DNA of 64,000 bases from assembly GCF_001485575.1 (NCBI RefSeq), contig NZ_BCNB01000006.1, forward strand, positions 1,798,001 to 1,862,000. Direction: 5' to 3'. The position numbers were made by a program, and so were the translations under genes. The DNA comes from Haloarcula sp. CBA1127. GTDB taxonomy: Archaea; Halobacteriota; Halobacteria; Halobacteriales; Haloarculaceae. Below the pieces are notes generated by a model, which had not been told where the DNA came from, did no database searches, and was given only the letters and a program-made list of their open reading frames with translations. Each line of letters starts with the position of its first letter. The first letter of the stretch is position 1. This document shows, piece after piece, positions 26,703 to 53,794 of the stretch.

Positions 26703-26722
26703 CACACCACCCTGCAAGTGTT
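26703..26722 (-). repeat. Origin recognition box, inverted copy
   Basis: On the minus strand this 20-mer is exactly AACACTTGCAGGGTGGTGTG, the consensus of the boxes on both sides of cdc6. It is the only copy facing the other way, so it forms the left boundary of the origin core. Confidence 0.9.
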
Positions 26723-26734
26723 CTCGGTGTTTGC

Positions 26735-26760
26735 AGGGATGGGGATGGGGAGGGGGAGGG
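26735..26760 (+). promoter_or_regulatory. G-rich tract next to the inverted ORB
   Basis: Runs of three to five G separated by AT or A (GGGATGGGGATGGGGAGGGG and on). It could form a G-quadruplex on the plus strand or act as an enhancer-like element, as G-rich repeats do at Haloarcula oriC1. Role inferred. Confidence 0.45.
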
Positions 26761-26861
26761 TTCTTCTACATACTTAAAAGAAAGTCGGGTTGTTCGATTC
26801 TACTGAGAGTGCATGATCAGAATACCATCCGTACATACGGATATGAGTGTTCTAGGGCCCT

Positions 26862-26966
26862 ATAGATGGGTTTCTATGAAATAGGCCGTTCGATCATAAA
26901 TATGAGATAATTGCATATACCGTAAAATATATAAATACATTACTAGTTCTAGGTATAGTCTAGAAC
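26862..26966. other. AT-rich duplex unwinding element
   Basis: The most AT-rich stretch in the origin region, with TATAGATG, ATCATAAATATGAGATAATT and AAAATATATAAATA. It lies between the inverted and direct ORBs and ends in a 7-bp inverted repeat at 26946-26966. Position and composition fit the site of initial DNA melting. Confidence 0.7.
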
Positions 26967-27056
26967 GAGATAGTCGAGAACCGCAGGACTCAAGTGTACT
27001 AGACGAGGGATCGGTGCAGCAGACTGCTCGTGGCTGTTTTCGAGAGAGATCGAAGG

Positions 27057-27122
27057 AACACTTGCAGGGTGGTGTGTGACTGTTCGGCGTGAAAACACTT
27101 GAAACACTTGTACGGTGGTCAC
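27057..27122 (+). repeat. Two direct origin recognition boxes plus a half box
   Basis: A perfect consensus box lies at 27057-27076. A variant, AACACTTGTACGGTGGTCAC, lies at 27103-27122, and a half site AACACTTG at 27094-27101. The last box ends 4 nt before the cdc6 TATA box, so Cdc6 bound here could also repress its own promoter. Confidence 0.88.
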
Positions 27123-27125
27123 TGG

Positions 27126-27133
27126 TTTTATAT
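27126..27133 (+). promoter_or_regulatory. cdc6 TATA box
   Basis: TTTTATATAG region with its centre about 29 nt before the ATG at 27159, so the mRNA should be leaderless. It directly abuts an ORB. Confidence 0.75.
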
Positions 27134-27158
27134 AGAGTCACTCAAAAGGTGGCATACG

Positions 27159-28487
27159 ATGGTCGACGTGAACGAGAACCCGTTCGATGGGACTGACGCG
27201 ATCTTCGAACGAAAGCAACCGCTGAAAAAAGACACGTTCACGCCGGATACGATCTTTCACCGCGATGAGGAGATCGAATTCTACATTAACGCGCTTCAGG
27301 ACGTCATCGTCGGCCACGACCCCAACAACGTCTTCGTTTACGGCCCAACGGGAGTCGGAAAGACTGCTGTTACGAAGTGGGTCCGGGACAAACTCGAAGA
27401 GAAAGCCGAGGCTGAGGACATCCCGCTCACTGTTGTCGGTCCGATAAACTGCCGGAACTACCGATCAGCGTACGCGCTAGTCAACACACTCGTTAACGAG
27501 TTCCGGGAGCCCGAGAACCAACTGCCAGAGAGCGGCTACAGCACTGACAGCGTCTTTGAGTTCCTCTACGAGGAGATCGAGGCTGTCGGTGGGAACGTCC
27601 TCATCATTCTGGACGAGATCGACAACATTCCAGCGGACGCGCGGAACGACTTCCTGTATGAACTGCCGCGGGCTGAAGCGAACGAGAACACGCCGATCAC
27701 CGATGCAAAGGTCGGGCTCATCGGGATATCGAACGACCTCAAGTTCGTCGACGTGTTGGAACCCAAGGTAAAATCGACACTGGGGGAGCGAGAGATCAAG
27801 TTCGGCCCGTACGACGCGACCGAACTCCGAGACATTCTGGGTTACTACGCCGACATCGCGTTTCGGGAGGACGTGCTCGGCGAAGATGTCGTCCCGCTGG
27901 CGGCCGCCTTCTCGGCACAGGAACGCGGCGACGTTCGGCAGGGACTCCGAATCCTCGAAAAGGCCGGGGAGTACGCGCGGATGGAGGGTGCGGATGGTGT
28001 GACAGAAGCGCACACTCGTCGCGCGACAGATACTATTGAGACTGACGAACTCCTTGATTACTTCGAGCATGACCTGAGTTCACAGCAGGCACTGACGTAT
28101 CTCGCGACGACGCTTGCGCTCATCGAACCGAAACACGAGGCGTCGACGAAACGGATCTACAACCTCTACTCCTCTATCGCGGAGTCGAGCGGCCGCCGAG
28201 TGAAATCCGAGCGGAAAATCTACGAGTTCCTCGACCAGCTTTCGATGCAGGGGCTGGTCCGCTCGGCCGAACGCAATCTCGGTCGCAAGGGTGGGCGCAA
28301 ATACATTTACGAGGTCACTGACGATCCGACCGATATCATCAACGCTGCACTCCAATCCTCCTACAGCGATGCCGTGCCGAGTAACGTCAACGGGATTCTC
28401 GAACATTATCTGGAAGACGAGGCGACTGAGTTTGAGGCACCGGACACTACTGACGACGAGCAACAGAACCTCTGGCAGTTCACGTAG
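27159..28487 (+). CDS. cdc6E: Orc1/Cdc6 replication initiator
   Basis: AAA+ initiator that binds the neighbouring ORBs, melts the origin and recruits MCM. 442 residues from MVDVNENPFDGTD. Walker A is GPTGVGKT (62-69), Walker B LDEID (151-155), sensor 1 GISND (189-193), and the sensor-2 arginine region is RGDVRQGLRILEKAG (about 265-280). The C-terminal winged helix (about 330-410) includes SERKIYEFLDQLSMQGLV. Start ATG at 27159 is fixed by the TATA box; the frame upstream from 27099 lies inside the ORBs. The letter E follows the Haloarcula hispanica naming and rests on the match of locus architecture, not on alignment. Confidence 0.93.
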   Translation: MVDVNENPFDGTDAIFERKQPLKKDTFTPDTIFHRDEEIEFYINALQDVIVGHDPNNVFVYGPTGVGKTAVTKWVRDKLEEKAEAEDIPLTVVGPINCRNYRSAYALVNTLVNEFREPENQLPESGYSTDSVFEFLYEEIEAVGGNVLIILDEIDNIPADARNDFLYELPRAEANENTPITDAKVGLIGISNDLKFVDVLEPKVKSTLGEREIKFGPYDATELRDILGYYADIAFREDVLGEDVVPLAAAFSAQERGDVRQGLRILEKAGEYARMEGADGVTEAHTRRATDTIETDELLDYFEHDLSSQQALTYLATTLALIEPKHEASTKRIYNLYSSIAESSGRRVKSERKIYEFLDQLSMQGLVRSAERNLGRKGGRKYIYEVTDDPTDIINAALQSSYSDAVPSNVNGILEHYLEDEATEFEAPDTTDDEQQNLWQFT

Positions 28488-28526
28488 CCAGCGTCTTTGC
28501 ACGCCCCCCTCCGGCTCACACGGCAG

Positions 28527-29261
28527 AACACTTGCACGGTGGTGTGTGTGTGTTCAGCGGCAGTCTCTCTACTGTGCAGTCCAGAACAGTTGCAGGGTGG
28601 TGTGTGTATGCCCACGATAGACCGCGACCCCGGAGTGCTAACGAGTGATTATGTGGTATTTGTCTCCGCTGCAGTGTGTAGAACACTTGCAGACCGGTGT
28701 GTCACCCCGTCCTGTCGCCGCACCACGGTATTCCGTTTCGAAAACACTTGCAGGGTGGTGTCAACCCGGATTCGGCGCAAATCACGCCCAAAACGGCCTT
28801 TTGGAACACTTGCAGGGTGGTGTCCCAGCATACTCTCACCCACCTCAAGCAGTACGTGAAACACTTGCACGGTGGTGTGCAAGGGCAAATCGGAACTCCG
28901 AACAACGCCACAAAAACACTTGCAGCGTGGTGTTTTCGTAGATTTCAGACGCTCGCATACCCTCCGTGCGAACACTTGCAGGGTGGTGTGTGAACACGTG
29001 TTCACTATTCTGGTCTGGCTGTAGTCGAACTGGAAACACTTGCAGGGTGGTGATAGAACACTCGTATGGTGGTGTCGGATTGCTTGTGTAGGGTTGTCAG
29101 AACACTTGTAGGGTGGTGTGCTGGCCCATTATCACCGGGCTGATCCCTACAGCAACCGTCCCGTTCGGCGTACCTGTGCCGTTCAGGTCATTCGATAATG
29201 ACCTGTCATACAATGATAAAGGCAGCGAGGCTTCGTCAGAGAACACTCGAAGGGTGGTGTT
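28527..29261 (+). repeat. Downstream ORB array, 12 copies
   Basis: Twelve copies of the origin box, all in the same orientation, start at 28527, 28585, 28682, 28743, 28805, 28860, 28915, 28971, 29035, 29057, 29101 and 29242. The consensus is AACACTTGCAGGGTGGTGTG; the copy at 28971 is perfect, and most differ at one to three positions (for example AACACTTGCACGGTGGTGTG at 28527 and 28860). The copies at 29057 and 29242 are the most divergent. Most starts are 55-64 bp apart. The stretch 28488-29327 has no gene. In Haloarcula hispanica a downstream ORB-rich region was reported to titrate Cdc6E and restrain initiation, which this array matches. Confidence 0.92.
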
Positions 29262-29327
29262 CCCGCGAAAAACACGTTGTTTGCGACGCAATCAATCAAG
29301 CGACGGTGATCGACTGAGCCCTCCCCA

Positions 29328-48677: not shown

Positions 48678-48752
48678 AACATTGGCGTAGGAACCAATGT
48701 GTTAGCTTCCGACGGAGTGCAACCACTTCCGCCGCTGATGTATATCAGCACA

Positions 48753-50223
<1,471 letters not shown>

Positions 50224-50301
50224 ACTGACCGGGATCAGGGCTCTGCCCTGACCCACCTACATTGACTGGTGACCACAAGTCACCACGAGTCGGTAAGCGC
50301 C

Positions 50302-50329
50302 GACTACTGCATGGGCCCGCTGGGCTCAC
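50302..50329 (+). other. 3' strand of the pre-16S processing stem
   Basis: GACTACTGCATGGGCCCGCT then GGGCTCAC, the partner of 48651-48677. The pairing is continuous on both sides of a short bulge. Confidence 0.8.
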
Positions 50330-50536
50330 AAAGACCTATCCGAGGCGGATATCCCTTCACGGGGATGTCGGGTGCAACTCCCGACGGGTCCGTACTTCGT
50401 ATCGCTCCGAACCGTGCCCCTTAAGTGTGGGACGGCGCTCGGATGTGATACGACGACAGATGCACCAGGCCGGGTGAAACCGAGCCTGGGAAGGGTCGAT
50501 TCGCCCACCATCTCCACCTTGGGGGCGAATATGAAA

Positions 50537-50578
50537 CCGTGTGTACGTGCGATCCAGGCGTCCACTGGACTCGTTCAG
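50537..50578 (+). other. 5' strand of the pre-23S processing stem
   Basis: Begins CCGTGTGTACGTGCGATCCAG and ends CTGGACTCGTTCAG. It pairs with 53563-53606 past the 23S gene, with offset three-base bulges near GCGTCCA of the bulge-helix-bulge type. Confidence 0.85.
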
Positions 50579-50598
50579 TTGAACGAGTCACAACGACG

Positions 50599-53520
<2,922 letters not shown>

Positions 53521-53562
53521 TCATACGCACTGTGACTCATTCACCGACGATTTAACTCGTCG

Positions 53563-53606
53563 CTGAACGAGTCCAGGCGCAAACTGGATCGCACGTAATC
53601 ACACGG
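53563..53606 (+). other. 3' strand of the pre-23S processing stem
   Basis: CTGAACGAGTCCAGGCGCAA through CACACGG, complementary to 50537-50578. Confidence 0.85.
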
Positions 53607-53657
53607 TGGAGATCGATCGAGACTGGTACCCTCGCGGTTCGATTCCGTGACTCGACG

Positions 53658-53779
53658 TTAGGCGGCCACAGCGGTGGGGTTGCCTCCCGTACCCATCCCG
53701 AACACGGAAGATAAGCCCACCAGCGTTCCGGGGAGTACTGGAGTGCGCGAGCCTCTGGGAAATCCGGTTCGCCGCCACC
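53658..53779 (+). rRNA. 5S ribosomal RNA
   Basis: TTAGGCGGCCACAGCGGTGG at the start and GTTCGCCGCCACC at the end, 122 nt, nearly identical to the known Haloarcula 5S. The terminal stem GGCGGC/GCCGCC is intact. Confidence 0.98.
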
Positions 53780-53794
53780 ATTCATACCTTTCAT

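Follow-up and report, generated by a model that had tools for sequence, protein, structure and literature searches.

The twelve-box array downstream of cdc6E in Haloarcula sp. CBA1127 is a conserved ortholog of oriC2D, a known negative-control region of oriC2 in H. hispanica

The intergenic region downstream of the initiator gene cdc6E in Haloarcula sp. CBA1127 harbors twelve initiator boxes (ORBs) that all point in one direction. This is the oriC2-cdc6E locus, and its array is orthologous to oriC2D, a known negative regulator of oriC2 in H. hispanica (PMC3936714). It is a conserved, functional-looking copy of that region, and both the array and its role are thus known in kind. We consider it likely, at roughly three chances in four, that the array is the negative-control region of the oriC2-cdc6E module and that its main mode of action is probably the sequestration (titration) of Cdc6E. 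Three features are new as far as the literature was checked, namely the division of the boxes into two classes, a composite site at the cdc6E promoter and the single direction of the downstream boxes across cdc6E lineages.

We analysed a 64-kb stretch of the genome (the window), in which cdc6E (27159–28487, + strand) encodes an Orc1/Cdc6 initiator of 442 amino acids (TIGR02928, 365.7 bits, with Cdc6_lid and Cdc6_C) that is 97–100% identical across 15 Haloarcula genomes. The oriC2 core upstream of the gene consists of a left ORB (26704–26723, − strand) with a GTG-rich tail (GTGTGGGT), a right ORB (27056–27075, + strand) with a GTG tail, each scoring 36.2 bits with a position-weight matrix, and a presumed AT-rich unwinding region (26840–26960) with a GC content of 33%. 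In all lineages compared, the right ORB is kept 100–136 bp before the ATG, while the left is kept upstream, mostly 375–555 bp before the ATG, and has its GTG tail in every lineage. A third core box lies ~57 bp upstream of the ATG; it is weak and has no tail. Just inside the left ORB lies a G-rich run (GGGATGGGGATGGGGAGGGGGAGGG; 26736–26760, + strand) that is found in most Haloarcula chromosomal copies compared and is absent from H. salina and most other lineages; it is G-quadruplex-like and recalls the G-rich enhancer of oriC1, but is not an inverted repeat.

The array is contained in an 840-bp gap (28488–29327) between the cdc6E stop codon (28487) and the stop codon of a convergent acyl-CoA dehydrogenase gene (29328). 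It is comprised of twelve 20-bp boxes at 28526–29260, all on the + strand: box 1 (28526–28545), which has an extended GTGTGTGT tail, box 2 (28584–28603), with a GTGT tail, box 3 (28681–28700), with a non-canonical GACC core, box 4 (28742–28761), box 5 (28804–28823), box 6 (28859–28878), box 7 (28914–28933), box 8 (28970–28989), with a GTG tail, box 9 (29034–29053), box 10 (29056–29075), which starts only 22 bp after box 9, box 11 (29100–29119) and box 12 (29241–29260), a CGAA variant. These assignments draw on the weight-matrix scan and the Haloarcula comparison (boxes 1, 2, 5, 6 and 9–11), on that comparison for boxes 7 and 8, and on the tail test for boxes 1, 2 and 8. Successive boxes are spaced by 58, 97, 61, 62, 55, 55, 56, 64, 22, 44 and 141 bp. 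The initial annotation had described a gene-free array of twelve boxes in the same orientation, mostly 55–64 bp apart, and this description holds: no gene is evident in the gap, 12/12 boxes share the + strand and seven of the eleven spacings fall in that range. Two details needed correction, as the first box begins one base earlier than had been given (at 28526) and the array does not hold six to ten times more boxes than the core but, with the window's 15 strong sites divided 12 to 3, four times as many (4:1). The array contains neither an AT-rich region nor an inverted box pair, and its best 60-nt stretch reaches 57% AT compared with 78% in the oriC2 unwinding region. A helical phasing of the box spacing, which appeared in the window at 11.0 bp (p=0.005), was rejected since it was lost once every period between 9.5 and 12 bp was admitted and since other Haloarcula species did not show it.

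A position-weight scan of the whole window gave 15 boxes at 25.8–36.2 bits, every one of them at the oriC2-cdc6E locus; the best match outside the locus scored 9.1 bits, and a first-order shuffled window held on average 0.5 matches of at least 10 bits. Since the matrix had been built from these same boxes, the scan speaks to their isolation and is not an independent discovery, but a repeat finder run without the matrix recovered most of them. Genome-wide, 11 sites match the 18-base core sequence AACACTTGCAGGGTGGTG with at most one mismatch, all 11 at this locus. A further 11 matches lie off-locus, with 2–3 mismatches; they are isolated, most in or beside repeated coding sequence and none in an array, and we rejected them as additional Cdc6E sites. 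On other replicons, four copies of AACACTTGCACGGTGGTC are found where members of a repeated family of small genes begin (L026, L027, L029 and L031), which looks like chance similarity inside a repeated gene.

The assignment to H. hispanica oriC2 with its downstream ORB cluster under negative control, made in the initial annotation, proved right. The two loci share the same initiator gene, the same ORB and the same gap between cdc6E and the convergent acyl-CoA dehydrogenase gene. They also share a complete rRNA operon (48752–53780, + strand, with 16S at 48752, 23S and 5S) that lies ~20 kb downstream and points away from the origin, as described for oriC2-cdc6E (PMC4441112); ARAGORN reported no tRNA genes in the 64-kb window, including the 16S–23S spacer (~370 bp). 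The oriC2D region of H. hispanica comprises 11 ORBs in 722 bp (PMC3936714), and the same scan applied to a genome matching H. hispanica gave 11 boxes and a gap from the cdc6 stop to the next gene of exactly 722 bp; our strain has 12 boxes and a gap of 840 bp. Box 12, present in our strain, is deleted in that genome and in H. amylolytica.

Genetic work on H. hispanica showed that oriC2D has no ARS activity of its own, that it reduces replication of an oriC2 plasmid both in cis and in trans, that a plasmid with two downstream boxes has an intermediate effect, and that the region cannot be deleted unless oriC2 is removed too (PMC3936714). Titration of Cdc6E by oriC2D, proposed by analogy with datA, and over-initiation as the cause of the failed deletion are both inferences of those authors (PMC3936714), whose text does not contain the words iteron, handcuff or EMSA. 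We found no Cdc6E binding or ChIP study of the array or the core in the largely open-access literature that was searched. Deletions around cdc6E in H. hispanica arose between 20-bp repeats that flank the gene (PMC10989794), and these repeats are probably the ORBs described here because the boxes of the right arm and of the array form direct repeats.

The one-way cluster extends well beyond Haloarcula. All 12 lineages whose cdc6E ortholog reaches 67% identity or more (the Haloarcula chromosome, an H. pelagica plasmid, Halobellus, two Halorubrum, Natrinema, Saliphagus, Haloparvum and four further genomes) carry downstream boxes, 2–12 each, and all 69 of these boxes point in the same direction, matching the right arm of the core. 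Boxes within one array are not independent; with one free choice of direction per array, agreement of all twelve would arise by chance about once in 2,000, and part of the agreement could also reflect common descent of the arrays. In Natrinema gelatinilyticum and at locus L084 the downstream cluster is split by an insertion of ~1.6–1.8 kb, and the Haloparvum box distances were measured from an incomplete match; all three counts need care. At L009 (6387–8308) and L084, where insertions of this size divide the cluster, the boxes on either side keep their direction.

A de novo search of the CBA1127 genome revealed small downstream clusters near several other cdc6 genes. For genes whose main origin lies upstream (L097, L099, L100, L102 and L103), each downstream cluster of 2–4 boxes is one-way, and such clusters may be common among origins. 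Their polarity runs with or against the right arm, differing by Orc1/Cdc6 family; we thus rejected the idea that one polarity rule governs every haloarchaeal origin, and the polarity seen with cdc6E is not a general one. Two cdc6 genes, L098 (G000:C1:202583) and L095 (C4:10082), have most of their ORBs downstream (7 + and 1 −, and 5 + and 2 −, respectively), as if the origin itself were 3′ of the gene. At L107/L108 (G000:C2:108901-109994) a cdc6 gene is split over two frames and is probably broken; ORB-like repeats are still found on both of its sides.

Core and array boxes differ in what follows them. Across the 12 lineages, a GTG and a G/T-rich stretch follow 23 of the 24 opposed core boxes compared with 9 of the 69 array boxes, a difference that none of 20,000 within-lineage permutations reproduced (0/20,000) and that also holds with two other tail definitions. 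When Haloarcula salina is added, the tails are found at 25/26 core and 11/77 array boxes, and there an 8-nt G/T score fails to separate the classes. Three of the twelve array boxes in our strain (boxes 1, 2 and 8) carry the GTG tail and are exceptions to the pattern. In H. hispanica oriC1, mutation of the analogous extended G-string abolished replication. From these sequence patterns we infer that the array boxes would be bound by Cdc6E while missing some of the requirements for firing.

In the mechanism that we favor, Cdc6E would bind the array boxes and be held there in a form unable to fire, because the array has no inverted pair, no AT-rich unwinding region and mostly no extended G/T tail. 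Cdc6E held at the array would in turn keep oriC2 from over-initiating, and this sequestration could be strengthened if Cdc6E on the array pairs with Cdc6E at the origin. E. coli datA is likewise a cluster of initiator boxes that restrains initiation, an analogy that has already been published, but datA is far from oriC whereas the array starts ~1.4 kb from the nearest core box. The action of datA depends largely on IHF-dependent hydrolysis of DnaA-ATP.

The cdc6E promoter carries a site that bears on this mechanism. The third core box (27102–27121, + strand) is preceded by a half-site, AACACTTG, located 9 bp before it, and the two form a composite site (27094–27121, + strand). With a threshold of at least 6 of 8 letters, the half-site is found exactly 9 bp upstream of 12/12 scored promoter boxes but of 0/26 core and 0/77 array boxes, and L084, which is outside the scored set, shows the same half-site pattern by eye (AACAGATGTAACACTTGCAGG). 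A TATA-like element of cdc6E (TTTTATATA; 27126–27134, + strand) adjoins the site. The composite site lies directly beside the TATA element in 12/12 scored loci, with a TTTAT-like sequence a few bases further on, and in 10 of 13 loci such an element is located 30–33 nt before the ATG. Because the composite site adjoins the TATA box, the arrangement suggests that Cdc6E controls its own promoter through a putative autoregulatory operator. Such autoregulation would buffer pure titration and count against the mechanism outlined above: if Cdc6E represses its own synthesis, extra sites are partly offset by more synthesis, titration is therefore weaker and pairing of core and array becomes a serious rival. 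In a toy model with free, arbitrary parameters, removal of 12 sites raised free initiator up to 6.4-fold under constitutive expression and 1.5–2.7-fold under autorepression at moderate to high expression.

The rival in question is handcuffing, in which array-bound Cdc6E would pair with core-bound Cdc6E and physically block oriC2 without lowering the level of free initiator, in the manner of iteron plasmids and V. cholerae ori2. Its appeal lies partly in the predicted weakening of titration and partly in the layout of the locus, since iteron replicons show the same order of origin, initiator gene and downstream cluster of initiator sites. In control loci of the incA type, as in the iteron plasmid P1, clustered initiator sites depress origin activity in cis and in trans and bring about incompatibility. 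Iteron-plasmid inc loci and the present arrays have in common a cluster of direct-repeat sites beside the initiator gene (69/69 boxes one-way in the 12 lineages), and cdc6E orthologs of 75% identity are located on plasmids. The inc region of V. cholerae ori2 is comparable as well: its initiator sites are clustered at the replication module, reduce the activity of the origin both in cis and in trans, and cause incompatibility, and in V. cholerae titration and handcuffing coexist (PMC6090056). The initiator here, however, is an archaeal AAA+ Orc1/Cdc6 and not RepA or RctB; bridging of two DNAs by archaeal Orc1/Cdc6 is hypothetical, the site spacing is without helical phasing, autorepression is itself putative and the toy model has free parameters. 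We regard handcuffing as the main mode as rather unlikely. A broader proposal, which we put forward only tentatively, is that haloarchaea have two classes of site, extended, tailed, inverted ones that fire and short, tail-less, one-way ones that only bind. Together with the autoregulatory composite operator, these would make up an iteron-plasmid-like circuit, perhaps one that includes handcuffing, of independent evolutionary origin around Orc1/Cdc6 and brought into the chromosome from elsewhere.

Partition sites and polar fork barriers, too, typically contain direct repeats in clusters. The array could on that basis serve mainly a different origin process in cis, such as segregation, the setting up of a chromatin domain or the blocking of replication forks, with the effect on oriC2 being secondary. 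This is improbable, as the sites are boxes of the cognate initiator that co-occur with cdc6E in all lineages, deletion of oriC2D is tolerated once oriC2 is gone, and oriC2D acts in trans on a plasmid origin (PMC3936714).

Conservation within Haloarcula is consistent with negative control by bound Cdc6E and bears on the origin of the array. Related Haloarcula, in which the initial annotation had proposed counting the boxes, do carry the array, and across 13 genomes pairwise identity is 90% in box columns but 59% in spacer columns; none of 734 circular shifts of the box mask reached the observed identity. Box 4 is invariant in the 13 genomes. The GACC variant, box 3, is identical in 11 of them and is also found in Haloparvum. 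Ten genomes have box 12 letter-perfect and two have lost it by deletion; among the boxes present, variation is greatest in boxes 7 and 10. Spacer-to-spacer similarity within the array is no higher than in shuffles. Elsewhere in the family the picture differs, as all spacer pairs match in Halobellus, where eight boxes form a near-perfect 47-bp tandem array (L007 6478–6824), a fresh instance of expansion through duplication, and the Haloparvum array contains one perfect recent duplication. Arrays in the cdc6E family can thus grow by tandem duplication, but in the Haloarcula array we see no sign of such growth, nor are the divergent boxes decaying, because the spacers are unrelated and those boxes are conserved. 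The growth by tandem duplication and later decay suggested in the initial annotation is for these reasons not supported, and we rejected a tandem-duplication origin of the Haloarcula array. That the boxes are a functionless, decaying relic of such duplication would accord with the Halobellus and Haloparvum arrays, the variation of boxes 7 and 10 and the loss of box 12 in two species, but is very improbable for Haloarcula, where it is already contradicted by the footprint of boxes far more conserved than their spacers and of odd variants (boxes 3 and 12) kept nearly letter for letter across species.

How archaea restrain over-frequent firing of their origins is poorly known, and a locus of this kind is a leading genetic example. 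Our comparison splits the notion that many boxes soak up the initiator into separable parts, namely the number of boxes, their direction, their tail and the promoter operator. It also shows that what was published for a single species is old and general, with every cdc6E ortholog examined (at least 67% identity), on chromosomes and plasmids, keeping a one-way downstream cluster.
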